Origin: Conexivisphaerales archaeon
GTDB taxonomy: Archaea > Thermoproteota > Nitrososphaeria > Conexivisphaerales > DTJL01
DNA length: 64,000 nt
Assembly (NCBI GenBank): GCA_038728585.1
Contig: JAVYTR010000009.1
Span: 1-64,000, forward strand
Direction: 5' to 3'
Below are positions 41,122-56,635 of the stretch, piece by piece. The position numbers and the translations under genes are program-made. The notes beneath the pieces are model-generated. The model made no database searches and was not told the origin of the DNA. It was given only the letters and a program-made list of their open reading frames with translations. Positions within the stretch are counted from its first letter, which is position 1; every line of letters starts with the position of its first letter.

Positions 41122-41718
41122 CTGGACGTTGAAAGGGGCGAAGTAGATAGGCTGCTTTCGTATGTTGATTCTGTTGCATCTAGGCTGAACATACCGGATA
41201 ATGCGAGAGATGAAGCAAAGGATGTTCTGAGAATTATACTTCAATCAGGAAGGAAGCAGTTTGTTGCAGCTGCTGTAGCATCATGCCTGTACCTAGCATG
41301 CAAGAAATATCAGCTGCCGATAACGATGCAGGAAATAGGTAACGCAGTAGAACCCAAGGTAAATAGACACGTCATAGGAAGAAAATGCACAAGTCTGTAT
41401 AGGCTGCTCTATTCCGATTCGCCTCCGAAGACGATGCCGCCTGAAGCTTACGTCTACCGGATAGCTTCTGCGCTGAAATGCTCACATTCAGTCGTTCAAC
41501 ATTCTCTAGAACTGATCAGATGGGCGAAAGCTGCAGGAAGCCTTGTGTCAGGCAAGCACCCAGCTGTAATCGCAGCTGCAGCGCTCTACCTCTCAGCAAT
41601 GAAACACGGAGACGCTTTACCACAGGCAGAGTTAGCGTCGAAGGCTGGCCTAGCAGATTCCAAATCGCTCAGGAGAGTCATTGCTATACTCGAAAAGGTT
41701 GATGTAGAGCACCCCTGA
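41122..41718 (+). CDS. TFB-like transcription factor without zinc ribbon, probable CTG start
   Basis: Two cyclin-fold repeats of TFB are clear: LLSYVDSVASRLNIPDNARD to AAAVASCLYLACKK, then AYVYRIASALKCSHSVVQHS to VIAAAALYLSAM. The N-terminal zinc ribbon and B-finger that contact RNA polymerase are missing. In frame, from the upstream TGA (41101) to ATG 41326, there is no ATG, GTG or TTG, and ATG 41326 would delete half of the first repeat. CTG 41122 has GGTG seven bases upstream. It may act as a competitor or specialised factor. Confidence 0.75.
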   Translation: MDVERGEVDRLLSYVDSVASRLNIPDNARDEAKDVLRIILQSGRKQFVAAAVASCLYLACKKYQLPITMQEIGNAVEPKVNRHVIGRKCTSLYRLLYSDSPPKTMPPEAYVYRIASALKCSHSVVQHSLELIRWAKAAGSLVSGKHPAVIAAAALYLSAMKHGDALPQAELASKAGLADSKSLRRVIAILEKVDVEHP

Positions 41719-41956: not shown

Positions 41957-42484
41957 TTGAAGGGCGGCGATACCGGTAAAAAAGATGATATCGGTTCCCG
42001 CTGGCGTGACGACCTTAAGGCTATCCTCAGGCAGCGTCCCTGTGAGCTCGTTGGTATAGGAAATCCGATCAGAAGGGATGACTCTGCTGGATTATTTGTG
42101 ATAAGACATTTGAGGAAGAAATATGGAAAGCATCCTAGCGAAGGAGTAGTAATCCATGACCCGATTACTGCACCGGAATTGGTCAGGTTGAAACTCTCAT
42201 ACAAGAATGCGAGGGTCATTGTTTTTGACTCTGCAGAGATGAACATGAAACCAGGAAGCATAATGCTTGCAAACATATCTGATTCAAGGTATGGATTCTT
42301 TGCAACCCACAACATACCGCTGAAGCTGATTCCATACTTCGCTGAACACCCTGAAAAGACATGGATAGTGGGGATACAGCCTGAAGACGTTTCGATCGGA
42401 GAAGGACTTTCAAACACAGCAATGAAATCTGTGAAAGAATTGGTATCATTCTTTGGCATCATATTCGAAGGTGAAGCTGAATGA
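41957..42484 (+). CDS. hycI: [NiFe]-hydrogenase maturation endopeptidase (HycI/HyaD family)
   Basis: Peptidase family M52, 175 residues. It removes the C-terminal extension of the hydrogenase large subunit after nickel insertion. Motifs: VGIGNPIRRDDSAG, the VFDSAEM strand with a metal-ligand-type acid, FATHNIP with the histidine, and VGIQPE. TTG 41957 starts the operon and the 3' end overlaps the NuoA-like gene by four bases. Its presence supports a working [NiFe] site in the large subunit encoded at 43711-44949. Confidence 0.87.
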   Translation: MKGGDTGKKDDIGSRWRDDLKAILRQRPCELVGIGNPIRRDDSAGLFVIRHLRKKYGKHPSEGVVIHDPITAPELVRLKLSYKNARVIVFDSAEMNMKPGSIMLANISDSRYGFFATHNIPLKLIPYFAEHPEKTWIVGIQPEDVSIGEGLSNTAMKSVKELVSFFGIIFEGEAE

Positions 42485-42825
42485 GCGAAGCTGATGTCAT
42501 CTTGGCACCTATTCTGATCATACTGGTCGACCTTCTTGCCTTTTACCTGTTTGGAAGGCTGGGAAAGAAGAGTTACGGCGAGGGAACGAAATATGAGCCT
42601 TTCACTGGGGGAGAAAGAGAAGCACCAACCAGAGGGCTCTATCAGTCCAACCTCTTCGTATTTGCAGCGATGTTCCTTGTGGTTGAGGTCTTCGCTTTAC
42701 TGATAGCAGGTTCATACCTGGCACAAGCTCCATACTACCCTCTGCTCTTTTTGCTGGGGGGAAGCGGTGTCATTCTGCTTGTTGTGTGGTGGTTGATAAT
42801 TGTAGGAGGTGTCAGGTTCACTTGA
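42481..42825 (+). CDS. nuoA: NuoA-like membrane subunit
   Basis: Protein of 114 residues with three membrane helices. The loop after helix 1 holds the NuoA pattern YEPFTGGEREAPTRGLY, and helix 2 has an acidic residue in FLVVEVFALL. In complex I, NuoA lies at the quinone-chamber and membrane-arm junction. A separate NuoA is unusual in group 4 hydrogenase operons. Its start overlaps hycI (ATGA). Confidence 0.85.
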   Translation: MSEADVILAPILIILVDLLAFYLFGRLGKKSYGEGTKYEPFTGGEREAPTRGLYQSNLFVFAAMFLVVEVFALLIAGSYLAQAPYYPLLFLLGGSGVILLVVWWLIIVGGVRFT

Positions 42826-43259
42826 CACTGAGGGACTGGGCCAGAAAGAGGTCGATCTGGGTCTTTGATGTGAACGCTGCTTCTTGCAACGGTTGTGATA
42901 TCGAAATCCTCGATGCGTTCACTCCTCGCTACGATGTCGAAAGGCTCGGTGTTGTGCTTGTTCCCAGCCCGAGACACGCAGATGTTCTTCTGGTTACTGG
43001 CACAGTCAATTCGATGATGAAGGAGAGGCTCAGAACCATATACGAACAGATGCCTGAACCTAAGTATGTTGTAGCTGTGGGTGCATGCGCTCTGGGAGGG
43101 GGCGTCTACAAGGGATGCTACAACGTAGGGCATGGTGTCGACAAGGTGATTCCTGTAGACCTGTACATACCAGGCTGCCCCCCGAGACCGGAAGCAATCA
43201 TATATGGGATAGTAAAGCTTGTCACAGGTGAACCTCCAGACCCCAAGGAGGAGAGCTAG
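42822..43259 (+). CDS. Group 4 [NiFe]-hydrogenase small subunit (NuoB/EchC-like)
   Basis: Protein of 145 residues carrying the proximal [4Fe-4S] cluster. Ligands are Cys22 and Cys25 (SCNGCDIEIL), Cys89 (VGACALGGG) and Cys119 (PGCPPRPE). CNGCDIE is the form found in Ech/Mbh/Hyc hydrogenases, whereas complex I NuoB has adjacent cysteines (ACC). The start is TTG 42822, overlapping the NuoA stop (TTGA), with GGAGGTG upstream. An in-frame codon at 42786 is not needed. Confidence 0.92.
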   Translation: MTLRDWARKRSIWVFDVNAASCNGCDIEILDAFTPRYDVERLGVVLVPSPRHADVLLVTGTVNSMMKERLRTIYEQMPEPKYVVAVGACALGGGVYKGCYNVGHGVDKVIPVDLYIPGCPPRPEAIIYGIVKLVTGEPPDPKEES

Positions 43260-43718
43260 ATGATCGAGGAGAAGCTGGTTGAAATAGCAAAGGAGGTTTC
43301 AGGAAACGTTTCAAGGACAAGGAAGTCTTTCATACTCAAGGTGAACCCGGAAAAGGTAAGTGATGCATGTCAGAAGGTTGCAGGGTTGAATGACTTTTAC
43401 CATCTCTCGACCATTACCGGCGTGGATATAGGAGAACATATAACTGTCATGTACCATTTCTGGAAGGGTAGGGATTTCATAACAGTCTCAACCGATGTCC
43501 CGAAGTCAAATCCTCACCTGCCAAGCATAAGCTCGTCTCTACCCTCTTCGCTCCTTTACGAGGCAGAGGTGAAGGACCTACTGGGAGTCATATTCGACGG
43601 AAACCCCCTGATGGGAACCAGGCTGATTCTGCCAGATATCTATCCTGAGGATGCGCCACCTCCTCTTACGAAGGAGGCAGACTCTGAAAAGATAAGGAAG
43701 ATGATGGAGCTTGAGTGA
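43260..43718 (+). CDS. nuoC: NuoC-like (30-kDa) hydrogenase subunit
   Basis: Protein of 152 residues matching the complex I 30-kDa/HycE N-terminal family: HLSTITGVDIGEHITVMYHF, then EAEVKDLLGVIFDGNPLM with the RDxxGI-type region varied, and DIYPEDAPPPL. It connects small and large subunits on the cytoplasmic arm. The ATG directly follows the previous stop, and its 3' end overlaps the large-subunit start by eight bases. Confidence 0.85.
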   Translation: MIEEKLVEIAKEVSGNVSRTRKSFILKVNPEKVSDACQKVAGLNDFYHLSTITGVDIGEHITVMYHFWKGRDFITVSTDVPKSNPHLPSISSSLPSSLLYEAEVKDLLGVIFDGNPLMGTRLILPDIYPEDAPPPLTKEADSEKIRKMMELE

Positions 43719-44949
43719 AGATAGCAAGGAGAGAAGAGAAGCAGGAGCGGGGCTGATGGAGTACTCTCCAGAGAACCTTGTTCCGTTTGGACCGGTTCAT
43801 CCATCCCTAAAAGAACCGGAGTACTTCAAGCTGATCCTTGAAGGGGAGAAGATAGTTGAAGTCTATCCAAGGATTGGTTATGTCCACAGGGGGATAGAGA
43901 GGGCGGCCCAGGACAGGACATGGGTTAAGAACATATACCTCTTCGAAAGGATCTGCGGTATCTGTAGCTTTGCCCACAGTTTGGCCTACACAGAGGGGAC
44001 AGAATCCCTTACGGAATTTCAGATTCCGTTGAGGGCCAAGTATCTGAGGCTGATTATAGCTGAGCTTGAGAGAATTCACAGTCATTTACTCTGGCTGGGT
44101 CTGGTAGGATACTGGACAGGTTTTGATACCCTCTTCATGTGGATCTGGAAGGATAGGGAGCATATTCTTGACCTGCTTGAAGCAATCACAGGGAACAGGG
44201 TTCACAAGTCTTTTTCAACACTCGGCGGTGTAAGAAAGGACCTCACTCCTGGCCTTGCTGAAAAGCTGAAGCATGAGACCAGATTCATAACAGAAAGGGC
44301 GAGATACTACGAAGAGCTTCTACATACAGAGGAGACGCTGATAAGCAGAACAAGGGGGGTGGGTAATCTTACCAAGCAGGTTGCGGAGAGACTCTGTCCT
44401 GTTGGACCATTATTACGCTGCTCTGGCATTGCGAGGGATGTGAGAAAAGAGGACCCATATGCAGCATACGAATACGTCCAGCCAGACGTTAAGACATCGA
44501 ATGCAGGTGATGTCGAATCTCTTCTTTCTATAAGGCTTGCTGAAGTGGTGGATTCGTGCAGGATGATTGACGAAGCACTAGAAAGACTACCAGAAGGTCA
44601 GATAAGAATTCCTTTCCCCAGAATCATACCTAGGGGAGATGCGTATTTCCATGTAGAGGCTCCAAGAGGCGAGCTCTTCTACTTCATAAGGTCTCTAGGT
44701 ATGGCGAAGCCCGAAAGGGTCAAAATAAGGACACCAACATTAGCAAATCTCCTGACGGCAGCCGAGATGCTTAAGGGAAGACCACTTGCAGATGTGCCTG
44801 TAGTTCTGACCGGTATCGACCCATGCTTCGGCTGCATGGATAGAATCACTGTTATAGATGTAGACAAGAGCAAGGAATGGTCCGTCAGCGGGGAAGAGCT
44901 CAGAATATACGGAATAGAATACTACAAGAGGAAGGTGGGCAGATGTTGA
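43711..44949 (+). CDS. Group 4 [NiFe]-hydrogenase large subunit (NuoD-like) with intact nickel ligands
   Basis: Catalytic subunit of 412 residues. The L1 motif is RICGICSFAH (Cys82, Cys85, His89) and the L2 motif DPCFGCMDR (Cys372, Cys375). These four cysteines ligate Ni-Fe in hydrogenases and are lost in complex I NuoD. A 34-residue tail follows Arg378 and is the expected target of the upstream HycI-type protease. FPRIIPRGDAYFHVEAPRGE is the conserved group 4/NuoD segment. The start is TTG 43711, or ATG 43756 with a GGAG site. Confidence 0.93.
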   Translation: MSEDSKERREAGAGLMEYSPENLVPFGPVHPSLKEPEYFKLILEGEKIVEVYPRIGYVHRGIERAAQDRTWVKNIYLFERICGICSFAHSLAYTEGTESLTEFQIPLRAKYLRLIIAELERIHSHLLWLGLVGYWTGFDTLFMWIWKDREHILDLLEAITGNRVHKSFSTLGGVRKDLTPGLAEKLKHETRFITERARYYEELLHTEETLISRTRGVGNLTKQVAERLCPVGPLLRCSGIARDVRKEDPYAAYEYVQPDVKTSNAGDVESLLSIRLAEVVDSCRMIDEALERLPEGQIRIPFPRIIPRGDAYFHVEAPRGELFYFIRSLGMAKPERVKIRTPTLANLLTAAEMLKGRPLADVPVVLTGIDPCFGCMDRITVIDVDKSKEWSVSGEELRIYGIEYYKRKVGRC

Positions 44950-45917
44950 ACCTTCTGCAGCTAATTCAGATCCTTGTCTTTCCTGGCCTTACGTTCTTTG
45001 TATGGGTCGCATTTGCGTTCGAATGGCTGGAGAGAAAGACGGCAGCAAGAATGCAGGGTAGAGTAGGGCCTATGGTTGCTGGTCCCTTTGGGTTGTTGCA
45101 GCCCGTTGCTGATTTCTTCAAGCTTGCATCAAAGGAGATTATAATCCCCAGGCATTCAGAGAATTTTGTACTGTCATGGGGGCCACCCTTGTACTTTGCA
45201 GCACCAGCTATAGGCAGTATATTCATACCAGTTCTCAGCTCCAGCTCTACAATCAATCATCCTCTAGACGTTCTCTTCGTGCTCTTTATCCTGACTTTTT
45301 CGACACTGATGGCTTCTCTTTTGGGTTATTCTACTGCAGGAAGGTTCTCTACCATAGCTGTAGGAAGGCTGGTGGTTCAGTATACGAGTTATGAAATACC
45401 GCTGATCCTTTCAGTCATTTCCCCTGCGATTCTTGCAAAGAGCCTTTCGATGAGCTCCGTAGTTGCTGCACAGTCTCAGCGGTGGTTCGTAATCTCCTCT
45501 CCTCTTGCTTTTGCAGTCTTCATAATAGCCTCGCTGGCAGAGCTGGAAAAGCCTCCGTTTGACATACCGAGTGCGAAGACGGAAATAGTGGCAGGCTGGA
45601 TGACAGACTTTTCCGGAAATGCTCTTGCTTACATCAAGCTGACAAAGAGCCTCAGCTATGTATTTCTTTCTGCTCTAGCTGTAACACTGTTTCTGGGCGG
45701 GCCGAACGGGCCAGTACTCTTTGAAGATTCGATTCTTCAGTACGCTCTCAACGCCTTCTACTTCACGACAAAGCTCTTCTTAGTTGGCTTCTTGATCTTC
45801 GCAATAAAGACAGCGCTTGCAAGGATAAGAATCGACCAGGCGGCAGAGCTTTTCTGGACAGTTCTCACTCCACTCAGCCTCATTCAGGTTGGTCTGGCTG
45901 TACTACTAGGGTGGTAA
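44943..45917 (+). CDS. nuoH: NuoH-like membrane subunit
   Basis: Membrane subunit of 324 residues anchoring the peripheral arm (also HycD/EchB/MbhM family). The hallmarks WLERKTAARMQGRVGP, GPFGLLQPVADFFKL and LAELEKPPFDIPSAKTEIVAG are all present, with about eight helices. The acidic and basic loop residues of the E-channel are visible (ELEKPPFD, AKTE). I start at ATG 44943, overlapping the large-subunit stop. The in-frame upstream extension lies inside that gene. Confidence 0.93.
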   Translation: MLNLLQLIQILVFPGLTFFVWVAFAFEWLERKTAARMQGRVGPMVAGPFGLLQPVADFFKLASKEIIIPRHSENFVLSWGPPLYFAAPAIGSIFIPVLSSSSTINHPLDVLFVLFILTFSTLMASLLGYSTAGRFSTIAVGRLVVQYTSYEIPLILSVISPAILAKSLSMSSVVAAQSQRWFVISSPLAFAVFIIASLAELEKPPFDIPSAKTEIVAGWMTDFSGNALAYIKLTKSLSYVFLSALAVTLFLGGPNGPVLFEDSILQYALNAFYFTTKLFLVGFLIFAIKTALARIRIDQAAELFWTVLTPLSLIQVGLAVLLGW

Positions 45918-45920
45918 AAA

Positions 45921-46316
45921 ATGTTCAGAAGGAGAATAGGCAAAGCGATGGGAGAAATGTTCAGGACTGCAATGCAGCAGCCTGTAACCGTAAAATATCC
46001 GTTTGGTCCTGTAATAGTTGCAGAGAGGTTCAGAGGAAAACTCGAGATAGACCCGGTCAAGTGCACCGGGTGTGGAGTATGTGAGATAGTCTGTCCTGCC
46101 GGGGTTATAACGATGGCGCATGTGGGCAAAAGAAAGATAGGCGACAGAGAGATAGAAGTCAAGAAGCCTGTCTTCGACTTGTACTCATGCATATCTTGCG
46201 GTCAGTGCGTCGATGACTGCAGGTTCGGAGCTCTGGCTTTGACAAATAACTTTGAGCTCGCAGTGTTTGATAAGAATTCCCTTGTGATGAAGAAGGCGTT
46301 GAAAGTTGTACAATGA
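45921..46316 (+). CDS. nuoI: NuoI-like 2x[4Fe-4S] ferredoxin subunit
   Basis: Protein of 131 residues with two clusters: Cys48, 51, 54 and 58 (CTGCGVCEIVCP), and Cys90, 93, 96 and 100 (CISCGQCVDDC). An N-terminal amphipathic stretch contacts the membrane in homologues. It wires electrons between a donor, most likely ferredoxin, and the proximal cluster of the small subunit. It lies four bases after nuoH. Confidence 0.92.
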   Translation: MFRRRIGKAMGEMFRTAMQQPVTVKYPFGPVIVAERFRGKLEIDPVKCTGCGVCEIVCPAGVITMAHVGKRKIGDREIEVKKPVFDLYSCISCGQCVDDCRFGALALTNNFELAVFDKNSLVMKKALKVVQ

Positions 46317-46785
46317 GATAATCATAACCTCTCTTTGTGCTGGTTTACTGCTTACTTCGTTCTTTGGCCTTGCTTCCAAAAAGGTCTCTACAACGCTGAT
46401 AATGCTGTTTTATTCGAGTATATTCCTCGGAATAATTCTGACAGTTTTAGGCGATGCACTGCTCGGCCTTCTTCACATGGTCACCTACGCAGGAGCTCTT
46501 TCCGTGATGCTCCTATCCGTCATTCTGATAACGGGTCAATCAGACCTTTCTTTGCATTCGAGAAGTGCAGCAAAGGTTGCAGGTGCAGTAGCGATAGCCA
46601 TAGCTGCAGTCGCATCATTCCTTATGTTTGACAGCTCTGGAGCACTACAGGTCTTTCCACAGGATGTTTCGCTCCAGCTCTTTTCCTTCCTCTGGCAGTT
46701 CAGACCGTGGGACCTGCTGATCCTGGTCATGCTGTTCATGTCTTCGATGCTTGTCCTTGTGAATCTATTCTCCAAGGGTGATTGA
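46306..46785 (+). CDS. nuoJ: NuoJ-like membrane subunit
   Basis: Protein of 159 residues with about five helices. Helix 3 carries GLLHMVTYAGALSVMLLSVI, the NuoJ pattern with a pi-bulge tyrosine. TTG 46306 overlaps the ferredoxin gene and the 3' end overlaps nuoK. In complex I this subunit links the quinone site to the antiporter modules. Confidence 0.88.
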   Translation: MYNEIIITSLCAGLLLTSFFGLASKKVSTTLIMLFYSSIFLGIILTVLGDALLGLLHMVTYAGALSVMLLSVILITGQSDLSLHSRSAAKVAGAVAIAIAAVASFLMFDSSGALQVFPQDVSLQLFSFLWQFRPWDLLILVMLFMSSMLVLVNLFSKGD

Positions 46786-47101
46786 ATTGTCTTTTGAGCA
46801 AACAATTCTCTATGTAACAGGCATAGCTTTAATCATGATGGGAACGTTTTCAATATTTGCGTCGAAAAATCTGATAAAGAGCATAATTTCATACCAGACA
46901 GTTGTCTTCGGCGTCAACCTATCTCTTTTTGCTTCCAGCTTATCGTTCACAGGTGCACAGAGGCTACTCGGTGATACGTTCGTCTTCATCTCAATAGTTG
47001 TAGGCGCTGCAGTAGAGGCAGCAGGATTGGCAATAATCATAACGGTCTTCCGCAAATTCAAGACTCTAAACCCTGCAGAAATCAGGAGGCTTATGCATTG
47101 A
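46778..47101 (+). CDS. nuoK: NuoK-like membrane subunit
   Basis: Protein of 107 residues, three helices (MnhC/NuoK/HyfE family). It contains NLIKSIISYQTVVFGVNLSLF and the acidic residue of helix 3 in VVGAAVEAAGLAIII, part of the proton path. GTG 46778 overlaps the nuoJ stop, and TTG 46787 is an alternative. The gene ends in a TTGA overlap with nuoL. Confidence 0.9.
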   Translation: MIELSFEQTILYVTGIALIMMGTFSIFASKNLIKSIISYQTVVFGVNLSLFASSLSFTGAQRLLGDTFVFISIVVGAAVEAAGLAIIITVFRKFKTLNPAEIRRLMH

Positions 47102-48822
47102 ATGAGCTCTTCTTCCTTGCCCCATGGCTTGTCTGGCTTCTACCTCTTTCATCAGTTCCCTTTGCCCCTTTAGTTGCCAGGCTGGGTCATAAGCCAGTAT
47201 GGATATATAGCTTGGCTGTATCTATGGCCTCGCTCGTCTTTGCTTCAGTAAGTGCATACACCTATCATGCTGCTACCTCTTCTTCGATTGCAGAGTGGGT
47301 TTCTCTTCTCTCTGTTCAAATTCAGATAGATGTAGACGGTCTTTCTTTGCTGATCTCTCTGCTGGTCTCGTTTCTGGTTACCCTAGTGCTGATATATTCC
47401 CTTTCATACATAAAGACAGGGTATGCAAGGTACTACTCTCTGATTCTTCTCTTTGCAGGTTCTATGCTCGGGCTCGTGATGGCAGGTAATCTGATACAGT
47501 TTTATTTCTTCTGGGAGCTGGTTGGAATCTGCTCTGCCTTGCTGATAGCATTCTGGTATGAAAGCGACAAGGCAAGAAAGGCAGGGATGAAGGCATTCAT
47601 AGTGACAAGAATAGGTGATGCTTCACTTCTTCTGGCAATATTCGTAGCCTATTCACTTTTAGGAGTTACCAGCTTTTCAGGTATTCTTTCCAGTTTTGCA
47701 AGCCTGCCCAAAAATTATGTATTGCTGTTTGGAATTCTTGCTTTCATAGGAGCCATGGGCAAGTCTGCTCAGGTACCTCTACATGGATGGCTGCCCGATG
47801 CAATGGAGGGTCCGACAACAGTCTCCGCTCTGATTCACGCTGCCACAATGGTCAATGCAGGAGTGTATCTTATCATAAGGCTTGCGCCCATGTATTACTC
47901 AAACACGATTCTTTCCTCCATGGTCTTAGCAATAGGTCTGCTCAGCGCCTTTGTAGGAGGGCTTGGCGCTCTTGGCTCAGATGATGTGAAGCGTGTTCTT
48001 GCTTATTCGACGATCAGCCAGCTCGGGCTGATGTTCGTTGCAATAGGGCTGAATACAGCCTCTTCTGCAACCTATCACCTAATTTCTCAGGGCCTCTTCA
48101 AGGCTCTCGGCTTTCTTTCGGCTGGTGCAGTCATAGAGAGCTTAGGAACCAGAGACATGAACGAAATGGGTGGATTATGGAGGTCGATGAAGATAACATA
48201 CTCTGGATTCCTTCTTTCAGTCTTGGCTATGTCAGGACTGCCACCTTTGGTCGGGTTCTGGAGCAAAGAATCAATCATTTCAGCTTCGGGAGAAGGTCCT
48301 CTCTTCTACACACTTCTGGTCTCGTCGATACTTACAGCCTCCTACTCCTTCCGTGCACTTTTGAAGGTCTTTCATGGTCGGGCCAAAAGCATAGTTGAAT
48401 CAAAGGACCCTCATCCAAGCATGTCTCTGCCTATCATCATCCTTTCAGTATCAGTTGTTATTGCATGGCTACCTCTAGAAATGCAAAACCTCGTTGCCTT
48501 CAGTTCTCTTCTTCCTTTGCCAGCCTACTATACTTCAATTCTGGCCATAGTCATTGGCTTCGCACCATGCCTGCTCGCATACCAGCTGTACTCCGCTAGG
48601 ATGAAAGAAATCATGATGACAAACTTGATTTTGCAAAGATTGAAGGGATTGCTCCGTGGTGGTCTGGGCTTTGATTCATTTTACAGCAATGTAGCTATTT
48701 CATTCAGCTCGATTGCAAAGGCTGTGGCTAGAATACAATCAGGAATTCTTCAGTACAACGTTGCGCTCATCTTCGCGGCTCTATTCATCCTTCTGCTTCT
48801 TGGGGCGGTGCATCTGATATGA
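47098..48822 (+). CDS. nuoL: NuoL-like antiporter subunit
   Basis: Ion-translocating subunit of 574 residues. It shows FYFFWELVGICSALLI (key glutamate), GKSAQVPLHGWLPDAMEGPTT, the lysine in DDVKRVLAYSTISQLG and ESIISASG. The C-terminal region (FDSFY, QSGILQYN) and length match NuoL proteins with the lateral helix, rather than short Mrp antiporters. It starts with TTG after AGGAGG. Confidence 0.93.
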   Translation: MNELFFLAPWLVWLLPLSSVPFAPLVARLGHKPVWIYSLAVSMASLVFASVSAYTYHAATSSSIAEWVSLLSVQIQIDVDGLSLLISLLVSFLVTLVLIYSLSYIKTGYARYYSLILLFAGSMLGLVMAGNLIQFYFFWELVGICSALLIAFWYESDKARKAGMKAFIVTRIGDASLLLAIFVAYSLLGVTSFSGILSSFASLPKNYVLLFGILAFIGAMGKSAQVPLHGWLPDAMEGPTTVSALIHAATMVNAGVYLIIRLAPMYYSNTILSSMVLAIGLLSAFVGGLGALGSDDVKRVLAYSTISQLGLMFVAIGLNTASSATYHLISQGLFKALGFLSAGAVIESLGTRDMNEMGGLWRSMKITYSGFLLSVLAMSGLPPLVGFWSKESIISASGEGPLFYTLLVSSILTASYSFRALLKVFHGRAKSIVESKDPHPSMSLPIIILSVSVVIAWLPLEMQNLVAFSSLLPLPAYYTSILAIVIGFAPCLLAYQLYSARMKEIMMTNLILQRLKGLLRGGLGFDSFYSNVAISFSSIAKAVARIQSGILQYNVALIFAALFILLLLGAVHLI

Positions 48823-50255
48823 TCTTTGTTGTAACACTTACCGAGATCCTTTTCACTTCATCTGCTGCATGCCTTGGACTTGACTTCTTTTCGAAGAAAC
48901 TTGGCAGGTATAGGCCCTACGCAATAGGCATTTTTACAACAGCAGCCCTTCTTCTCTCTTTGGCAATCATGCTCTTGAACTGGTCCAGTTATTTGGGGAA
49001 GACAATCACATCCCAGCCGGTTGCTTCTGCATATTCATCGATTTTCCTCTCTGACAGCTACACACTCTTCATCATCTTTCTTGTTCTGATAATATCGATT
49101 GCTTCTTCAGTCTATTCAGCATTTTGGCTCAAACCTGAAAGCAACGTGGGTCCCTACTTCTCTCTGCTTCTTGTACTCACCTGCTCTATCATAGGGGTTG
49201 CATCTGCAGGAGACCTGCTGACGCTATTTCTCTTCTGGGAAGGCATGAGTCTAGCCTCCTACGGCCTTGTCAGCTTCAGGAAGAACTACGAATTTGCACT
49301 CGAAGCTTCCCTGAAGTATTTCTTCATAGTTGGCCTAGGTAGCCTTGTAGCTCTTTTCGGCATATCGATCATATACTCCCTTACAGGTAATCTTCAGCTT
49401 GCTTCACTTGGGTTGCTCGATATGTCGAATCCGCTATCGTCTTTGGCTCTTGCTATGACGGTACTAGGTTTCGGTGCAGAGGCTGCGGTTGTGCCATTAC
49501 ACACATGGCTCCCAGACGTCTACTCTGCAGCTTCGTCTCCTGTTGTTACGATGATTTCTGGCACGGTAACAGCGATGGGGGTCTTGGGACCTTTCAAGAT
49601 CCTTCAACCTTTAGCATTAACTTCATCTGGTTCTCCACTCAGCTTCAGGTTGCTTCTGATTCTGGTTAGTTTATTTACTATGCTGATAGGCAACCTTGGA
49701 GGGCTCTACCAGACAAACCTGAGAAGAATGCTTGGATACAGTTCGATCGCCCAGACAGGCTATTTGCTGTCTGCACTTTCAACATTCAGCTCAGCTGGGC
49801 TTGTAGCAGTGATATTCCTGATATGGAACCATGGAGTCCTCAAATCTAGTTTCTTTGCTCTGTCAGGTTCTGTTGAGGAAGGATATGAAGGCGCAGACTT
49901 CGAAAGACTAAGAGGGATAGGGAAGCAGAGCAAGCTCCTTGGAACACTTTTCACTCTGTCATCGCTCGGGATGGTAGGCGCGCCTCCTTTCGGTCTCTTC
50001 TGGGGTGAACTGCTGATAGTTGAATCGCTCGTCCTTGCAGGGGGGCCTTATTTGCTGCTAGCTGCAGCTGTTGCTCTGAACATAGTGGTCTCGATTGGCT
50101 ACTACTACAGGGTGATAAACACGGTGGTATTTGGAGAACCCTCTTCAAGCACCTCAGGATACAGAGCAGACCTTCTCTCTGTATCGTTGCTCCTCCTTTC
50201 CATCAGTCTGATGACTGGGCTGATGCCCCAGCTGTTCCTTGGCCTCATTACATGA
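48819..50255 (+). CDS. NuoM/N or MrpD-like antiporter subunit
   Basis: Second antiporter-like subunit, 478 residues and about 14 helices. Motifs: LFLFWEGMSLASYGLVSF (glutamate), LKYFFIVGLGSL (lysine), VPLHTWLPDVYSAASSPV and NLRRMLGYSSIAQTGYLLS. It is closest in pattern to NuoN/MrpD/HyfF. It is the last gene of the operon (ATGA overlap with nuoL). The operon has only two antiporter-type subunits, whereas complex I has three. Confidence 0.88.
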   Translation: MIFVVTLTEILFTSSAACLGLDFFSKKLGRYRPYAIGIFTTAALLLSLAIMLLNWSSYLGKTITSQPVASAYSSIFLSDSYTLFIIFLVLIISIASSVYSAFWLKPESNVGPYFSLLLVLTCSIIGVASAGDLLTLFLFWEGMSLASYGLVSFRKNYEFALEASLKYFFIVGLGSLVALFGISIIYSLTGNLQLASLGLLDMSNPLSSLALAMTVLGFGAEAAVVPLHTWLPDVYSAASSPVVTMISGTVTAMGVLGPFKILQPLALTSSGSPLSFRLLLILVSLFTMLIGNLGGLYQTNLRRMLGYSSIAQTGYLLSALSTFSSAGLVAVIFLIWNHGVLKSSFFALSGSVEEGYEGADFERLRGIGKQSKLLGTLFTLSSLGMVGAPPFGLFWGELLIVESLVLAGGPYLLLAAAVALNIVVSIGYYYRVINTVVFGEPSSSTSGYRADLLSVSLLLLSISLMTGLMPQLFLGLIT

Positions 50256-50303: not shown

Positions 50304-50642
50304 GTGTTGTTGTTGAAAAGGTCTAGGCTGATAGCTGACATAAGCAGTTTTGAGCAGGCGGAAAGGGTCGAAACAACAATAAAGACAGGCTACTCTGAAC
50401 CAATACTCGAAAACTTGGCTCAATGGATAGCTGTTGAGGAAGACTTGGTTAGCAGCTACGAACAGATGAAGGACACTCTGGAGACTGCTGAATCAAGACG
50501 ACTGGCTGGGAAGCTTGCTGAGGATTCAAAAGAATTGATACATCAGCTGCACGAACTGCAATCCAAGCTTGTCATTCTTGACGAAAGGCAGGCTCAGAGG
50601 ATCAAGGAAGTTTCTGTACATATCAAACAGAAACCTATCTAA
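50304..50642 (+). CDS. Helical hypothetical protein downstream of the hydrogenase operon
   Basis: Protein of about 112 residues, all-helical and charged (EPILENLAQWIAVEEDLVSSY, ESRRLAGKLAEDSKELIHQL). This resembles ferritin-like or four-helix-bundle proteins without clear metal ligands. It begins in a GTG-TTG-TTG-TTG run at 50304-50315. A TATA-like ACATATTAG at 50283-50291 suggests the last TTG (50313) could be leaderless. It is separate from but close to the hydrogenase operon. Confidence 0.6.
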   Translation: MLLLKRSRLIADISSFEQAERVETTIKTGYSEPILENLAQWIAVEEDLVSSYEQMKDTLETAESRRLAGKLAEDSKELIHQLHELQSKLVILDERQAQRIKEVSVHIKQKPI

Positions 50643-51411
50643 ACACAGTTTTCAGTTTTGTCATCATTTTATTGACTTTATCCAAGTCGTAGACTGTGTA
50701 GGCCTCTATGTTCCTAGCTTGAGCCTCTGTCAGCCTCTGGCAAGCAAAATTCCAGTGAATCGACACCTTTTCGCCCGTCTTTAGTCTCGTGAAAGAGTCG
50801 ATGCTCCCGTCATATCTCACTCTTGTGATGACAGGCTTTGCCAAAGATATTCCTCTTTCATCCTTCACCAGTGGCCTTCTGAGAACTACAAGCTCTTTAC
50901 GCCGTATCTCCTTCACTTCCCCACATGAGACCCTGCAGTTATCCATCTGCTCTACTATTCTTTTTTCACTTTCGACGGTCGGACCTCCTTTCACCATCGG
51001 AAAAGCCAGACTCATCATAACGTACATCGTGTGATGAGGGAGCAAGTCTGCTTCCCCAGCTTTGAATACCTTCTTCACAGCTTCCCTGTCTCTTCTCTTG
51101 AGCGTTGAATGTGTAAACCTGTAGAAATCTTCAACCCTTACCTTCTCCAGAAGCCTGTTTCCTATCCAGTATGCCTCAGGTACCTCATAGTCGAAGACAT
51201 CTTTGCCAGTTGATTCAGCTATCATGCGAATGAAAGGATAAGCAGCTTCAAACTTCATCAGGTCAGAAATCAATTGTTCAGAGACCTTGCCTTCTTGCAG
51301 GTGCTCAAGTATTCTCCCTCCTTCATCAGGGCCGCAAAATCCCAAGCTGTTCGGCATGTAAGCATGCTTGGCATGCAGAATTATCCCTTCCTTCTTCTCT
51401 TTTATCTTCAT
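50635..51411 (-). CDS. Probable hydrogenase-associated protein (DUF6390-like)
   Basis: Protein of about 258 residues. The N-terminal AKHAYMPNSLGFCGPDEG recalls the family I know as DUF6390, found in [NiFe]-hydrogenase gene clusters, and later PHHTMYVMMSLAFP and IHWNFACQRL add His and Cys candidates. Assignment is from memory of the motif and tentative. ATG 51411 overlaps the hypC stop (ATGA), so both are co-translated. This context supports a hydrogenase role. Function unknown. Confidence 0.6.
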   Translation of the reverse strand: MKIKEKKEGIILHAKHAYMPNSLGFCGPDEGGRILEHLQEGKVSEQLISDLMKFEAAYPFIRMIAESTGKDVFDYEVPEAYWIGNRLLEKVRVEDFYRFTHSTLKRRDREAVKKVFKAGEADLLPHHTMYVMMSLAFPMVKGGPTVESEKRIVEQMDNCRVSCGEVKEIRRKELVVLRRPLVKDERGISLAKPVITRVRYDGSIDSFTRLKTGEKVSIHWNFACQRLTEAQARNIEAYTVYDLDKVNKMMTKLKTVFR

Positions 51412-51656
51412 CTGACACCTGCTCCCTGAGCTGAAGCAATGGCTCTTCTCAGCTCCCTCCATGCTTCTCTTCTCTTCTTCGCCTCTCTTTCACTTAACTT
51501 TGCTAGGGCGATACTGCCAAAGACCTCAACAAAACAACCTCTCTTGACCTTGAGCATAGATACATCAATCCCGTCAGAGACTCTTCCATCAAAGAACTCA
51601 ACTCTCGCCATCTTACCTTCTGCTAACAGAACCTTACCGACGCGAGAGATGCACAT
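51408..51656 (-). CDS. hypC: Hydrogenase maturation chaperone HypC/HupF
   Basis: Protein of 82 residues. It begins MCISRVGKVLLAEGKMARVE, with the essential Cys2 of HypC, then SMLKVKRGCFVEVFGSIALAKLSE, the OB-fold pattern. HypC carries the Fe(CN)2CO unit with HypD and delivers it to the large subunit. The start at 51656 is 26 nt from a TATA box. An upstream in-frame extension would displace Cys2 and is rejected. Confidence 0.87.
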   Translation of the reverse strand: MCISRVGKVLLAEGKMARVEFFDGRVSDGIDVSMLKVKRGCFVEVFGSIALAKLSEREAKKRREAWRELRRAIASAQGAGVR

Positions 51657-51676
51657 CAACACTAAATAGCAGGATA

Positions 51677-51688
51677 GGATATAAAATT
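51677..51688 (-). promoter_or_regulatory. TATA box for hypC
   Basis: The minus strand reads AATTTTATATCC, with its centre 26 nt before ATG 51656. A leaderless hypC mRNA is predicted. Confidence 0.6.
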
Positions 51689-51705
51689 CTTTTGAAGTAT
51701 CCAAA

Positions 51706-52887
51706 TCATTTCTTTCTAAAGACCAAATGGACTGCAATCACGCTCATGAGAGCAGAGGGTATGACCGCATCGAGCGAGAGAGCTCTTCCGACCCCCAGGT
51801 AGAAAAGGTATCCTGAAAGGGCAGGAGCAAGGACAGTAGCTACTGACTGAGATGTGGTAGTCAGCCCCAGAGAAGAGCCTGTCATCTTTCCAGCATATTC
51901 CGTGGCCAGAGCCTGCATCACAGGGAAGACTGATGAGCTGAAAAATCCCATCACCAACGCTCCGCCGAAAGATATCTCGAAATATGGCACGAAGAAGAAT
52001 ACAAGATAAGCCAGAACGACAAGAAGAGAGCTGATAAGAAGAGCCTTTTCCCTTCCTATAAGGTCTGACACCCTTCCCATAGCAGCCTTGCCCAGAGCTC
52101 CAGATGCAAGTACAAGAGAGCTCAGCAGGGCAGAGGGCAGGACACTAAAATGCATAACCTTGTAGAAATAGTAAGGTAAGAAGACTGATTGCCATACTGA
52201 TGCCCAGGTTGCTAGAAAAGCAAATACCATTATTGCATTGACCTCCTTCTTCTTGACCACCTGCAAAACTGCAGAACTTCTGCTGCCAGTATCTTCTTTC
52301 TCCTTTCTTACTCTTACCTCATCTGTGAGAAGCATGGCAACGATGACAGGTATTGCTGCAAGAGGTGGTAAAAGAAACGCATACCTCCAGCTTCCTAAGA
52401 ATGTAAATGCCAGTGCTCCCGCTGTAACCCCAGCTATCGAGCCTGCATCAAACCCCACATAAAATGTGCCAAGTGAGATACCCTTCTTTCCAGCAAATCT
52501 TTCAGCAACTGCCGCCATAGCAACTGGCCAGAAAAGTCCTTCGCCTACACCGCTTATCAGCCTGAACAAAAAGGCAGAGAAGAAGTTCTGTGCAAATCCA
52601 ATCATCCATGTGAAGACTGTAAAGATTGTTAGTCCGGCTAACATTATCTTCTTCCTGCCTATCAGGTCCGAAATATACCCTGCAAACATAACAACAGCAA
52701 GCACTCCTGCATACTGTGCGGAACCGAGGAAGCCAACCTCAGTCTTTGTCAACGATAAGTCTGTCTCCATAACACTCAGAACGCTCGAAAGGATGCTTCT
52801 GTCCAGAGCATACATCGCATAGCCTGCTGAAAGCGTGAAAAGAAAGAAGACGCTTCCCCTTTGCCACGATGCTGCAGCGTCCAACAA
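51706..52887 (-). CDS. Major facilitator superfamily transporter
   Basis: Membrane transporter of 393 residues with 12 predicted helices. MFS motif A is GYISDLIGRKK between helices 2 and 3, repeated as GRVSDLIGREK in the second half. The central loop (RVRKEKEDTGSR) is charged. It resembles the sugar-phosphate/aromatic-acid symporter branch, but no specificity determinant is visible. TTG starts are adjacent at 52887 and 52884. Confidence 0.88.
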   Translation of the reverse strand: MLDAAASWQRGSVFFLFTLSAGYAMYALDRSILSSVLSVMETDLSLTKTEVGFLGSAQYAGVLAVVMFAGYISDLIGRKKIMLAGLTIFTVFTWMIGFAQNFFSAFLFRLISGVGEGLFWPVAMAAVAERFAGKKGISLGTFYVGFDAGSIAGVTAGALAFTFLGSWRYAFLLPPLAAIPVIVAMLLTDEVRVRKEKEDTGSRSSAVLQVVKKKEVNAIMVFAFLATWASVWQSVFLPYYFYKVMHFSVLPSALLSSLVLASGALGKAAMGRVSDLIGREKALLISSLLVVLAYLVFFFVPYFEISFGGALVMGFFSSSVFPVMQALATEYAGKMTGSSLGLTTTSQSVATVLAPALSGYLFYLGVGRALSLDAVIPSALMSVIAVHLVFRKK

Positions 52888-52999
52888 ATTATCCTTTCAC
52901 AGCTGCTGATAAAAGACTTTTGATATTCACAAAACTTCCTTCCTTCTGCTTTCAATTTTGTTGGGCACACTTATTAGCAATTCAACGTTAACTTCCTGC

Positions 53000-53389
53000 A
53001 TGCACGAATATGTTTATGCAGACAGGATTCTGCAGACTGTGATTGAATACATGAAGAAGGAGGAGAATCAAAATCAAAATCAAGATCAGAACCAGAACCA
53101 GAACCAGAAGGTGAAGCTCATTCATGTAAAGGTAGGAGAACTCCTTGACCTGAGTAGCCAGTCGCTCAACCTTGCATACAGCATACTTTCGAAGGGGACA
53201 ATAGCTGAAGGGTCAAAATTGAAGGTAAGTATCGAGAAGGGTTCAGTTCTGTGCACTTCGTGTGGCTTCAACGGCAGACTTGAAGTCAAGGGTTCTCATG
53301 CAGTCGACCCCGTCTTTGCCTGCCCAAAGTGCGGATCTCCTCTGAAGATAGAAAAGGGGAACAGTGTAGAGATAACTGGCATGGAGTAG
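53000..53389 (+). CDS. hypA: Hydrogenase nickel-insertion protein HypA with Asn/Gln insert
   Basis: Protein of 129 residues. It starts MHEYVYADRI with the nickel-binding MHE N-terminus, and zinc ligands are Cys85, 88, 108 and 111 (CTSC, CPKC). Residues 22-36 are an Asn/Gln repeat encoded by imperfect hexanucleotides, inserted between the first helix and the strand VKLIHVKVGEL. ATG 53000 is 27 nt from a TATA-like ACTTATTAGC. An upstream in-frame start would bury His2 and is wrong. Confidence 0.88.
   Translation: MHEYVYADRILQTVIEYMKKEENQNQNQDQNQNQNQKVKLIHVKVGELLDLSSQSLNLAYSILSKGTIAEGSKLKVSIEKGSVLCTSCGFNGRLEVKGSHAVDPVFACPKCGSPLKIEKGNSVEITGME
53065..53108 (+). repeat. Hexanucleotide repeat inside hypA
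   Basis: Tandem AATCAA/AACCAG-type units encode alternating Asn-Gln (with one Asp-Gln). It is a likely site of slippage and length variation. Confidence 0.8.
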
Positions 53390-53544
53390 TCTCAGCACAA
53401 TTTTGCATGCAAAAACACGCATCTGTATATATAATTTCAACAAAAGTCCACGATGTAACAAATATTTCTTCAAATAAGTGCCGAATGCTCAATGTTTTCA
53501 CACAACATTTAATAGTGCACCGAAGCCTATTCTCGCTGATACAC

Positions 53545-54441
53545 ATGATTATTCGTGTCCGCTTTCATGGTAGAGGTGGACAAGGTGCAAAGACTGCAAG
53601 TCGAATTCTGGGTACATCCTGTTTCATCGAGGGGCTAAATGTGCAGGATTCTCCTGTCTACGGCGCGGAAAGAAGGGGTGCTCCTGTTACAGCCTTCACA
53701 AGGATATCTGATGAACAGATACTCGAAAGGGGATACGTCTTTGACCCTGACCTTATAGTGGTCATGGACCCAACCCTTCTTGACAGCCCAGCTGCAAGGG
53801 TAACTGATGGGATAAGAAAGAAAGGCGTAATCTTCCTGAATTCTCCTTCTGTTACCCACATAACAAAACAGAACATTGCATCAGACTTCAGGCTGGTCAA
53901 TTTTGACCTGACAAATGCTGCCATGGAGATGCTGGGCAAGCCGATAATAAGTTCTGCTTCAGCCGCGGCTGCAGCCAGGCTGATAGGTATGGTGAAGGAG
54001 AGCTCGCTCGAGCAGGCTATAGAAACTGAGCTCGAAGAAATAGGTTTGAGCGAAGAGACGATAGAAAAGAACGTTCTGCTTGGAAGAAAAGTATTCTCTT
54101 CACTCGAACCTGTCGAGCTGATGACTGAGGAGTCTTCAAGAGAACTGAAGATAGCTCCTCTTGAGCTGATACTTGAAGGAAACGGCCTGGAGGATATAAC
54201 GGCAGCTGGAAACTCCAGCGTCTCAAGGACAGGCAGCTGGAGGATATTCAAGCCAGTCGTTGACTACGAGAAATGCACCGCATGTACAGTATGCTATGCC
54301 TACTGTCCAGAATCTGCCCTAACTCTAAGACAAGACGGTAAGCCCGTGATAGATTACGATAATTGCAAGGGCTGCCTAATCTGTTACAGGGAATGTCCGC
54401 CTAAGGCTATCACGCTTGAAAGGGAGGTGGTTGCATTTTGA
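53545..54441 (+). CDS. porGD: 2-oxoacid:ferredoxin oxidoreductase, fused gamma-delta subunit
   Basis: Protein of 298 residues. The gamma domain opens VRFHGRGGQGAKTASRIL and holds the SPVYGAERRGAPV segment. The C-terminal 65 residues are a delta-type ferredoxin with CTACTVCYAYCP and CKGCLICYRECP. The gamma-delta fusion is seen in several archaea. ATG 53545 matches the family start, and the open frame upstream to 53329 overlaps hypA and is not part of it. First gene of the por operon. Confidence 0.93.
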   Translation: MIIRVRFHGRGGQGAKTASRILGTSCFIEGLNVQDSPVYGAERRGAPVTAFTRISDEQILERGYVFDPDLIVVMDPTLLDSPAARVTDGIRKKGVIFLNSPSVTHITKQNIASDFRLVNFDLTNAAMEMLGKPIISSASAAAAARLIGMVKESSLEQAIETELEEIGLSEETIEKNVLLGRKVFSSLEPVELMTEESSRELKIAPLELILEGNGLEDITAAGNSSVSRTGSWRIFKPVVDYEKCTACTVCYAYCPESALTLRQDGKPVIDYDNCKGCLICYRECPPKAITLEREVVAF

Positions 54442-55670
54442 CATCGACAAGAAGCATGCTGATGACTGGCAATCTCGCAGCAGCTTGGGGAGCTAGACTG
54501 GGCAGGGCAGATTACATACCTGCTTACCCGATAACGCCTCAAACTGAGATCATAGAAACTATTGCGAAGTGGGTCAGAACGGGAGAAATCGATGCAAAGC
54601 TGGTGCAGATGGAGTCTGAGCATTCGATGCTCACAGCTGCAGGGGCTGCTTCTCTTGCCGGGGCAAGAGTTTTCACAGCTACGTCCAGCCAGGGCCTTCT
54701 TTATGCTCTTGAAATGCTGTACAACATAGCAGGCTGGCGTGCTCCAATGGTGCTTGTGAACGTTGCGAGAGCACTTGCAGCGCCGATAACGCTAGAGCCA
54801 GACCATAACGATATCCTTGCAGCAAGAGATAGCGGTTTTCTGCAGTTTCATGCAGAAACATGTCAGGAAGTTCTTGACCTCATACTTCTCGCATACAGGG
54901 TTGCTGAGGACAGCTCTGTCCTCTTGCCAGCGATAGTCAACCTCGATGGTTTCTACCTATCTTTTACAAGAGAGAAGGTAGACCTGCCAAGCGAAGAGGA
55001 TGCAGCAGCGTTTCTGCCTGACTACAAGCCTGTAAACCCTTTCAGCGCTAGCAATCCTGTATCAAAAGGAGCAACTGTACTGAACGGCGCACTTTACAGT
55101 TACTTCAAGTATCATATGCACGCTTCTTCACTCAGGGCGAGGGATGTATTCGAGAAAGCATCAGCTGAATTCGAAAGAATGTTCGGAAGAAGCTATTCCC
55201 CTGTAGAGACTTTTATGGCTGATGATGCGGAGATAGTTCTGGTCATTTCCAACTCCTTCTCAACGATAGGAAAACAGGCTGTGAAGAGGCTGAGGAACAG
55301 GGGAATCCAGGCAGGTCTCATTAAACTCAGGATGCTGAGACCATTTCCGTCATCGCTAGTAGCGAGATACCTGTCAGGAAGGAGGGGAGTAGCTGTCTTC
55401 GACCAGAACATTTCTCTCGGCTTTGGCGGGATAATCTATTCAGAGGTTCTCACTTCTCTTTACCACAGGAGGAACAGACCACAGCTGATACTGCCGGTCA
55501 TAGGTGGACTTGGAGGCAAACAGATAACCATAGAGGAGATGGAGAGAATATTTGAAGCCACAAAGAACGAACTGGGTTCAGAATCTCCAGAGCCGCTCTT
55601 TCTGATGAGAAGCGAGGAGCTTGAAAGAACGATGAATCTGGTCAAGACTGCAAAGGAGGTGCATTCGTGA
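54438..55670 (+). CDS. porA: 2-oxoacid:ferredoxin oxidoreductase alpha subunit
   Basis: Protein of 410 residues. Motifs: YIPAYPITPQTEIIE, MESEHSMLTAAGAASLAGAR, TATSSQGLLYALEML and the C-terminal RMLRPFPSSLV. These are the pyruvate/2-oxoisovalerate-type PFOR alpha hallmarks. TTG 54438 overlaps the previous stop. It oxidises a 2-oxoacid to acyl-CoA and CO2 with ferredoxin as acceptor. The exact substrate is not decided, and pyruvate is most likely. Confidence 0.93.
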   Translation: MTSTRSMLMTGNLAAAWGARLGRADYIPAYPITPQTEIIETIAKWVRTGEIDAKLVQMESEHSMLTAAGAASLAGARVFTATSSQGLLYALEMLYNIAGWRAPMVLVNVARALAAPITLEPDHNDILAARDSGFLQFHAETCQEVLDLILLAYRVAEDSSVLLPAIVNLDGFYLSFTREKVDLPSEEDAAAFLPDYKPVNPFSASNPVSKGATVLNGALYSYFKYHMHASSLRARDVFEKASAEFERMFGRSYSPVETFMADDAEIVLVISNSFSTIGKQAVKRLRNRGIQAGLIKLRMLRPFPSSLVARYLSGRRGVAVFDQNISLGFGGIIYSEVLTSLYHRRNRPQLILPVIGGLGGKQITIEEMERIFEATKNELGSESPEPLFLMRSEELERTMNLVKTAKEVHS

Positions 55671-56635
55671 TGGAGCTTCAGTCCAAGTACAGAACACTGA
55701 GAGACGTGCCCCAGCTGGACTATCTGTCTCCGGGAGGTTCGCTCTGTGCTGGCTGCGGAGGTCTTCTTGCTGTAAGGCTCTTCCACAAGGTGCTTGGTAA
55801 GAATGTTGTCTGGGTCAATGCAGCTGGCTGCATGACCATAATGGTCAACTACCCATTGGTGCCTTTGAAATCCAACTGGCTATACACAGCATTTGCAAGT
55901 GCTCCCGCAGGTGCGCAGGGGATAAGGGATGCTCTGGACATTCTGATAAAGAAGGGAAAGATACCTGAGTCAGAGGATCTAAAGGTTGTCGTAGTCACTG
56001 GGGACGGAGCAGCCTACGACATAGGTCTTCAATCAACGTCGGGAGCGATATACAGAAACCTAGACTTCTACTACCTTTGCTATGACAACCAGGCTTATGG
56101 GAATACAGGTTTTCAGGTATCATCAGCTACCCCCGTAGGCTCATCTACAGCCACAACTCCAGCTACCCCCTCTCAGCCAGCTGGTAACATACAGAAAAGA
56201 AAGGACCTGTTTGAAATATGGAGAGCTCACAACCCTCCATACATAGCTACTTTATCTTCATCTTATGCAGTCGACTTCCTGAAGAAGGTGGAAAAAGGGT
56301 CAGGCTTCAGAGGACCAAAGCTGTACATATCTCTTGCAGGTTGTCCCACTGGCTGGGGATACGACCCCAGGGAGACAATAAGGGAAGAAAAGCTGGCAGT
56401 AGATACTGGAATATGGCCTTTGAAGGAGGCGGTTGAAGGAAAGGTCAGGCATACAGTTGTACCCAGAGCGCTAAGGCCGGTTGAAGAATACCTGGCAACT
56501 CAGGCAAGGTATCAGCACCTATTCACTCCTACCAAGAGAATAGATGTGATCAGACAGATACAGAATGATGTCAACAGCTACTGGGAAGGAGTTGCAGACA
56601 GGGAAGGTTTCGATATCAAGCTTGTCGAAACATAG
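55667..56635 (+). CDS. porB: 2-oxoacid:ferredoxin oxidoreductase beta subunit
   Basis: TPP-binding subunit of 322 residues. Cluster cysteines are in CAGCGG and in the later AAGC and AGCPTGW. The TPP motif is VTGDGAAYDIGLQ through DNQAYGNTGFQ. The start GTG 55667 overlaps the porA stop, with ATG 55670 next. The C-terminus has a PorB-type extension (RHTVVPRALRPVEEYL). It completes the three-gene por operon. Confidence 0.94.
   Translation: MMELQSKYRTLRDVPQLDYLSPGGSLCAGCGGLLAVRLFHKVLGKNVVWVNAAGCMTIMVNYPLVPLKSNWLYTAFASAPAGAQGIRDALDILIKKGKIPESEDLKVVVVTGDGAAYDIGLQSTSGAIYRNLDFYYLCYDNQAYGNTGFQVSSATPVGSSTATTPATPSQPAGNIQKRKDLFEIWRAHNPPYIATLSSSYAVDFLKKVEKGSGFRGPKLYISLAGCPTGWGYDPRETIREEKLAVDTGIWPLKEAVEGKVRHTVVPRALRPVEEYLATQARYQHLFTPTKRIDVIRQIQNDVNSYWEGVADREGFDIKLVET

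Follow-up and report, generated by a model that had tools for sequence, protein, structure and literature searches.

The closest described systems to the operon analysed here are the membrane-bound hydrogenase (Mbh) of Pyrococcus furiosus (PDB 6cfw), complex I/Fpo, the nuo clusters of Aigarchaeota (Caldarchaeales) and, for cofactor assembly, the HypABCDEF system. The operon lies at 41957-50255 of a 64,000-nucleotide stretch of contig JAVYTR010000009.1 from a Conexivisphaerales archaeon (the whole stretch is called the window), and its eleven genes, all on the plus strand and mostly overlapping or separated by few bases, encode a maturation protease followed by ten complex-I-type subunits, A, B, C, D, H, I, J, K, L and N. 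In [NiFe] hydrogenases, the established way of making the iron with its CN and CO ligands is by HypC-HypD together with HypE and HypF. Of these, HypD, HypE and HypF are held to be essential for the [NiFe] cofactor (PMC12134894). Mbh shares with the operon a nickel site, a proton-donor Glu, three-loop coupling and a ferredoxin-type NuoI, and probably also the use of one full proton pump; it differs in its Mrp-derived module and in MbhI, which is composed of TM1, loop 1, TM2 and a short lateral helix (TM, transmembrane helix; PMC7684303), whereas the window's operon has a three-helix NuoA and a NuoL bearing its own lateral helix. Neither Mrp-derived small subunits nor an MbhI-type anchor was found in the operon, although J is distantly similar to MbhD. 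Complex I/Fpo have in common with it NuoA, the NuoH loop, NuoJ, NuoK, a lateral-helix NuoL and the NuoN type, but the operon retains nickel cysteines, carries Glu in place of Nqo4 His38, has two antiporters rather than three, and contains no NuoEFG or FpoF. Near-complete nuo sets with a CXXC NuoD were reported by Hua 2018 in two Aigarchaeota bins (PMC6053391); these clusters likewise hold a group 4-type CXXC NuoD amid nearly all nuo subunits (PMC6053391, PMC9246946), and a ten-subunit Mbh-Mrp complex has been described in W. gerlachensis (PMC9246946).

On the basis of gene content, the complex encoded in the window is probably a membrane-bound, energy-conserving ferredoxin:proton oxidoreductase, in which a group 4-type [NiFe] hydrogenase sits on a complex-I-type membrane arm and which would be matured without HypD, HypE and HypF. 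This HypD/E/F-less maturation context was not expected; NuoA-bearing group 4 clusters also occur elsewhere. The original prediction of ten complex-I-type genes behind a protease holds for all eleven genes in both position and family: the protease, B, C, D, H, I, K, L and N are identified by Pfam and NCBIfam models, whereas A and J give no Pfam match as single sequences and were assigned by profile. The genes are as follows.

41957..42484 (+): HycI-type [NiFe] hydrogenase maturation endopeptidase (TIGR00072, 74.1 bits, cut-off 47.45; HycI Pfam model, 22.6 bits)
42481..42825 (+): NuoA/ND3-like subunit with three predicted TM helices (homologue profile)
42786..43259 (+): NuoB-like small subunit (PF01058, 123 bits) with a CNGC...C...C proximal cluster; probable start TTG 42822, later than annotated
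43260..43718 (+): NuoC-like subunit (PF00329, 70 bits)
43711..44949 (+): NiFe large subunit, NuoD-like (PF00346, 224 bits; PF00374, 42 bits)
44877..45917 (+): NuoH-like subunit (PF00146, 275 bits); probable start 44943, later than annotated
45921..46316 (+): NuoI-like subunit with two [4Fe-4S] motifs (two Fer4 matches; TIGR01971 and HycF-type matches)
46306..46785 (+): NuoJ-like subunit (profile against PDB)
46778..47101 (+): NuoK-like subunit (PF00420, 60 bits)
47098..48822 (+): NuoL-type antiporter subunit (TIGR01974, 418 bits, above cut-off)
48819..50255 (+): NuoN-type antiporter subunit (TIGR01770, 208 bits; PF00361, 196 bits)
50304..50642 (+): twelfth operon gene, encoding a 112-residue helical protein

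As had been predicted, subunits B and D carry hydrogenase motifs. The large subunit has RICGIC (RICGICSFAH) as its L1 motif and DPCFGC (DPCFGCMDR) as its L2 motif, with all four nickel cysteines intact, and both CxxC motifs are kept in all core members of the operon's clade whose sequence spans the site. Its Glu35 corresponds to MbhL Glu21, the residue that donates protons in Mbh (PMC11228991), and this Glu is kept in all core members together with the C-terminal extension, which comprises 34 residues in the window's protein. The small subunit reads CNGC, a CxxC, where NuoB of the same class has CC. The closest PDB relatives of the large subunit are formate hydrogenlyase HycE and MbhL, both ranking above Nqo4.

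Two large-subunit trees, one of 105 and the other of 97 sequences and both without the HydDB reference set, were computed. In both, the window's clade falls with the four-cysteine enzymes, and in the 97-subunit tree all 28 cysteine-free NuoD/FpoD rows lie on one side of a 100/100 branch that excludes the window's protein. It is extremely improbable, then, that the subunit is a true complex I NuoD that secondarily regained its cysteines: the nuo-like gene order and the matches to NuoD-family models are compatible with such an origin, but this branch rules it out in the trees, the hydrogenase protease, C-terminal extension and CxxC small subunit are all present, and a separate NuoD exists on another contig of the same genome. 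The large subunit's affinity by sequence is with the group 4 [NiFe] hydrogenases and not with NuoD/FpoD, in agreement with the predicted hydrogenase identity. The core large subunits form a 100/100 clade of their own, apart from MbhL, HycE/HyfG and a cluster of Ech-like gene order; the branching order among the group 4 clades is not resolved by the trees.

The unexpected result lies in the maturation genes. At E<=1, nothing in the window's genome, which measures 1.93 Mb and is 99.6% complete, matches HypD (PF01924). HypD overlooked through divergence was considered and rejected, because relatives of the same class score >400 bits. Nine further operon-bearing genomes, like the window's own, have no HypD, HypE or HypF over the curated cut-offs (labels G, L and C denote the genomes, loci and contigs compared, G000 being the window's genome): G000 (99.6% complete), G016 (95%), G174 (96%), G217 (91%) and G211 (90%), with G302, G304, G306, G309 and G310. 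These ten genomes span several families. HypE and HypF matches in the core genomes are far below cut-off, those of HypF covering shared domains only. By contrast, all three proteins exceed the cut-off in 9/9 of the deeper group 4-bearing relatives tested, and they are also present in the Endomicrobia genome G311, and in G301 and G307. HypB (TIGR00073) is below its cut-off in every genome, even in those with full hyp sets, and is hence uninformative. No second [NiFe] large subunit exceeds the Pfam cut-off in the window's genome.

Compared with the HypABCDEF system (PMC12134894), the window's genome thus has HypA, a HypC-like protein and the endopeptidase, and lacks HypD, HypE and HypF; in addition, it encodes a DUF6390 protein with a predicted HypC-like domain. 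Clustering of the core-locus flanks brought out the DUF6390 gene, the HypC-like gene and a transporter gene as a cassette beside the operon, and HypA is encoded next to it.

50635..51462 (-): DUF6390 protein (PF19927, 160 bits), with a predicted C-terminal HypC-like barrel; probable start 51411
51408..51737 (-): HypC-like chaperone (PF01455, 29.0 bits, cut-off 28.5); probable start 51656 (MCIS...)
51706..52887 (-): major facilitator superfamily transporter (PF07690, 194 bits), conserved in 9 loci
52958..53389 (+): HypA nickel chaperone (PF01155, 73 bits); probable start 53000 (MHE...)

The MHE start of the last protein is the nickel-binding start known from HypA. HypA exceeds its cut-off in 10/10 of the HypDEF-less core genomes and adjoins the operon in most of them, and the HycI-type protease gene keeps its position as the first of the operon. 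The HypC-like protein matches PDB HypC at 1.9e-6 by profile, although it is below the TIGR00074 cut-off; its family has an N-terminal MC motif in which Cys2 is invariant. Nine of the ten HypDEF-less genomes have the DUF6390 and HypC-like genes next to the operon. For the DUF6390 protein, the best PDB match of the predicted model in Foldseek is HypC of T. kodakarensis (E 1.0e-3, probability 1.00; TM score 0.62 by target length). A relationship of DUF6390 to HypD was rejected, as there is no sequence match to HypD and the fold search favours HypC. DUF6390 and PF19927 are not mentioned in the literature searched.

The genomic context ties DUF6390 to [NiFe] maturation, and DUF6390 and HypDEF are never seen together at one archaeal operon. 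At L003 in G301, canonical hypE, hypF and hypC lie upstream of the operon and hypA and hypD downstream; at L014, hypA and hypD lie downstream, where the contig ends; in G307, the hyp genes sit at another hydrogenase (C7). Since the enzyme of G301 adjoins the window's own branch in the tree, albeit with weak support (98/43), the two maturation contexts appear to interchange within one clade. From this complementary pattern we infer that DUF6390 and the HypC-like chaperone may take over the functions of HypD/E/F in the clade, fully or partly.

The simplest objection is that HypD/E/F are merely missing from the assemblies, on an unbinned plasmid or island, and that DUF6390 is an ordinary accessory of a conventional [NiFe] hydrogenase. 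Most of the genomes are metagenome-assembled genomes (MAGs), and gaps in them probably do occur: G308 also lacks HypD/E/F and yet has another hydrogenase, its genome being probably incomplete. (A weak HypD match downstream of the operon in G308 falls on the twelfth gene and is taken as chance.) Moreover, both DUF6390 genes found in the plasmid collection, from the bacteria Sulfobacillus and Mycobacterium, lie inside maturation clusters with HypD/E/F. Against this, all three genes are missing from ten genomes of several families, five of which have completeness values of 90-99.6%, all nine deeper relatives tested possess them, and the archaeal operons with DUF6390 are without HypDEF. We therefore regard an assembly gap as quite unlikely.

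Another explanation is that the Hyp-less enzymes hold a different centre, with nickel inserted by HypA and bound by the four cysteines, and processing by HycI, but no Fe(CN)2CO, so that the complex reduces something other than protons or uses a nickel-only site. The strict retention of the nickel-insertion genes and four cysteines in ten genomes without HypD/E/F would fit this proposal. However, DPCFGCMDR, RICGICSFAH and Glu35 are essentially unchanged between the HypDEF-bearing L003 and L010 and the HypDEF-lacking members, and the HypC-like protein, with its Cys2 kept, has no known role in nickel-only sites. We consider a different centre unlikely; because the active-site motifs are essentially the same with and without HypD/E/F, an alternative route to a similar cofactor is preferred over a wholly different centre. 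The absence of HypD/E/F lowers the claim that this is a conventional [NiFe] hydrogenase, not the claim that the enzyme works like one. The missing HypD/E/F and the unusual cassette beside the operon, both overlooked in the original prediction, have a direct bearing on its description of the complex as hydrogen-active.

The ferredoxin:proton oxidoreductase that we favour could operate as follows. Ferredoxin is the likely donor, given the 2-oxoacid:ferredoxin oxidoreductase encoded a short way downstream:

53329..56635 (+): 2-oxoacid:ferredoxin oxidoreductase, three genes (PF01558, PF01855, PF02775)

Electrons would pass from this enzyme to ferredoxin and then by way of NuoI and NuoB reach the nickel site, where H2 would be formed, and movements of the NuoA, NuoD and NuoH loops would drive proton export. 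HypA and HycI would carry out nickel insertion and processing of the large subunit, while DUF6390 and the HypC-like chaperone would supply the missing HypD/E/F functions, in whole or in part.

Several points weigh against this scheme. Given that HypD/E/F are held to be essential (PMC12134894), a genome without them might instead make another cofactor or carry out no H2 chemistry at all. The genomes are mostly MAGs, for which a shared unbinned element with hyp genes is unlikely but possible. The HypDEF-less genome G304 has neither a DUF6390 nor a HypC-like gene on the whole operon contig, and neither gene is found beside the operon in G301, L014, G307 or L011 (no genome-wide DUF6390 search was made in G301 and G307). 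The bacterial DUF6390 genes accompany complete hyp sets, which suggests a possible accessory rather than a replacement. Confidence in the DUF6390 model is moderate (mean predicted local distance difference test score, pLDDT, 66), and the model is good in its C-terminal part only, where the last 100 residues are mostly at 70-94. Finally, the approximately unbiased (AU) test leaves the relation to complex I undecided.

The membrane arm was predicted to combine A, J, K, a lateral-helix NuoL and one further antiporter beside the nickel site, and this combination is supported. In the search of PDB with a profile of A built from 24 homologues, 23/23 of the matches listed are NuoA/ND3/Nqo7, the best at 1.9e-8. 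The protein has three predicted membrane helices and one acidic residue kept in TM2. By these sequence criteria it is a genuine NuoA homologue; a chance small membrane protein is ruled out, as the profile finds NuoA/ND3 only. The J profile matches mainly NuoJ/ND6 (best 4e-9), with MbhD/MbsD at 2e-6 to 3e-6. In NuoK the Glu72-type residue is retained and the Glu36-type one is replaced by Gln, and the E-channel loop of NuoH is conserved. The NuoL model (mean pLDDT 81) has complex I NuoL chains as its best Foldseek matches over the whole length, with lateral-helix segments at 499-547 and the last TM helix at 551-570, although pLDDT is lower, ~52-73, at 490-574.

NuoL retains its full set of pump residues (Glu in TM5, Lys in TM7, His, and Lys in TM12), whereas in NuoN the TM7 Lys is replaced by Glu in all core members spanning the site, and the TM5 Glu is lost in some. 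The operon has these two antiporter subunits only, against L, M and N in complex I. Because N lacks the TM7 lysine, there is probably one fully equipped proton pump, and pumping would be by NuoL and the junction but not by the second antiporter. A single full pump fits the small free energy quoted for electron transfer from ferredoxin to H+ in Mbh, 12 kJ/mol per 2 electrons (PMC7684303).

As regards TM1 and loop 1, MbhI of Mbh is equated with ND3 in the literature (PMC10396290, PMC7684303), its ND3-like first helix and loop 1 being followed by the short lateral helix (PMC7684303). Helices 2 and 3 of Nqo7 determine where the peripheral arm sits in complex I, on another side of the membrane arm than in Mbh (PMC7684303, PMC10396290). 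Since a three-helix NuoA replaces MbhI here, we infer that the electron arm would dock as in complex I and not rotated as in Mbh. For the joint claim, that an archaeal clade is assembled without HypD/E/F through a DUF6390/HypC-like route, making Fe(CN)2CO in another way or a different nickel centre, and that it docks in complex-I-like fashion through a true NuoA, we see about an even chance.

It had also been suggested that the enzyme could be a living intermediate between membrane-bound hydrogenases and respiratory complex I; on that reading, the membrane arm with NuoA and a lateral-helix NuoL would have been rebuilt before nickel was lost. The combination of a nickel site with NuoA/J/K and the NuoL type speaks for this, and the AU test does not reject a tree in which the core clade and complex I are sisters (p-AU 0.138), which is not support. 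This sisterhood is, however, not recovered in the best tree, whose group 4 backbone lacks resolution, and NuoA, which other group 4 clades have as well, may be a long-standing shared trait or have come with a module swapped in later. Nor is there a simple series in NuoK, as the core has Glu72 where sampled deeper relatives have Glu36. An intermediate is therefore not demonstrated and seems doubtful to us. We call the operon a new variant of group 4 hydrogenase on a complex-I-like body, not a demonstrated intermediate. With its nickel site alongside a three-helix NuoA and a lateral-helix NuoL, the enzyme would make it possible to learn from a structure whether docking of the complex I type predates nickel loss. 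The ten genomes that have the enzyme together with its nickel chaperone and protease in the absence of HypD/E/F point to either a second cofactor route or a new metal centre, and the DUF6390 and HypC-like proteins are two named candidates for the alternative maturation.

At least 14 genomes carry the complete operon. Most of them are Nitrososphaeria, and Thermoplasmata-labelled MAGs and some that are otherwise labelled or unclassified are also among them; the nearest relative of the window's genome is of the same family. Conservation of the eleven-gene order in so many genomes means that it is not due to chance. All complete core loci have one more gene after N, at 50304-50642 in the window, which is the twelfth member of the operon; the aligned proteins have invariant GY, W, VE.D and Y residues. 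Two papers on non-ammonia-oxidising Nitrososphaeria make no mention of hydrogenases.

Endomicrobia, ANME-1 (anaerobic methanotrophic archaea) and other families of the class also have related group 4 clusters, 43-48% identical, and many of these clusters include a NuoA-like gene. NuoA had been put forward as a distinguishing feature of the operon; NuoA-like genes near NuoB in deeper Nitrososphaeria group 4 clusters, Endomicrobia and ANME-1 rule out that uniqueness. In the Endomicrobia (bacteria), L015 and L016 show a group 4 hydrogenase cluster in the order L-L-L-J-K-A-B-C-D-H-I-HycI, including a NuoA-like gene. Other genomes of the window's class have clusters of the order HycI-A-B-C-D-H-I-J-K or A-B-C-D-H-I-J-K-N-L-L, which may or may not correspond to the published Aigarchaeota bins. 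The large subunits of these clusters are ~43-48% identical to the window's, the NuoK charge pattern and antiporter set differ, and the nine genomes tested all keep HypD/E/F. In family f16 (L072, L073, L074, L078), HycI-A-B-C-D-H-I-J-K ends with no L/N-type antiporter gene detected nearby.

The window's genome also encodes complex I proper, split between NuoB-I-C-D at C12 (L080) and NuoH-J-K-L-L-N-N, with four antiporter-type genes, at C3 (L086). A third complex-I-superfamily cluster at C4 (L085:5476-12568) has HyfB/HyfF-like antiporters, a NuoB with CNAC and a 447-residue NuoD-like subunit without nickel cysteines, and resembles Ehr/Hyf-like enzymes. Upstream of the operon, the window encodes a 493-residue polytopic membrane protein without Pfam or NCBIfam match (39622-41103) and, just before the protease gene, a short TFIIB-repeat protein that is possibly the remnant of a transcription factor (41326-41718).

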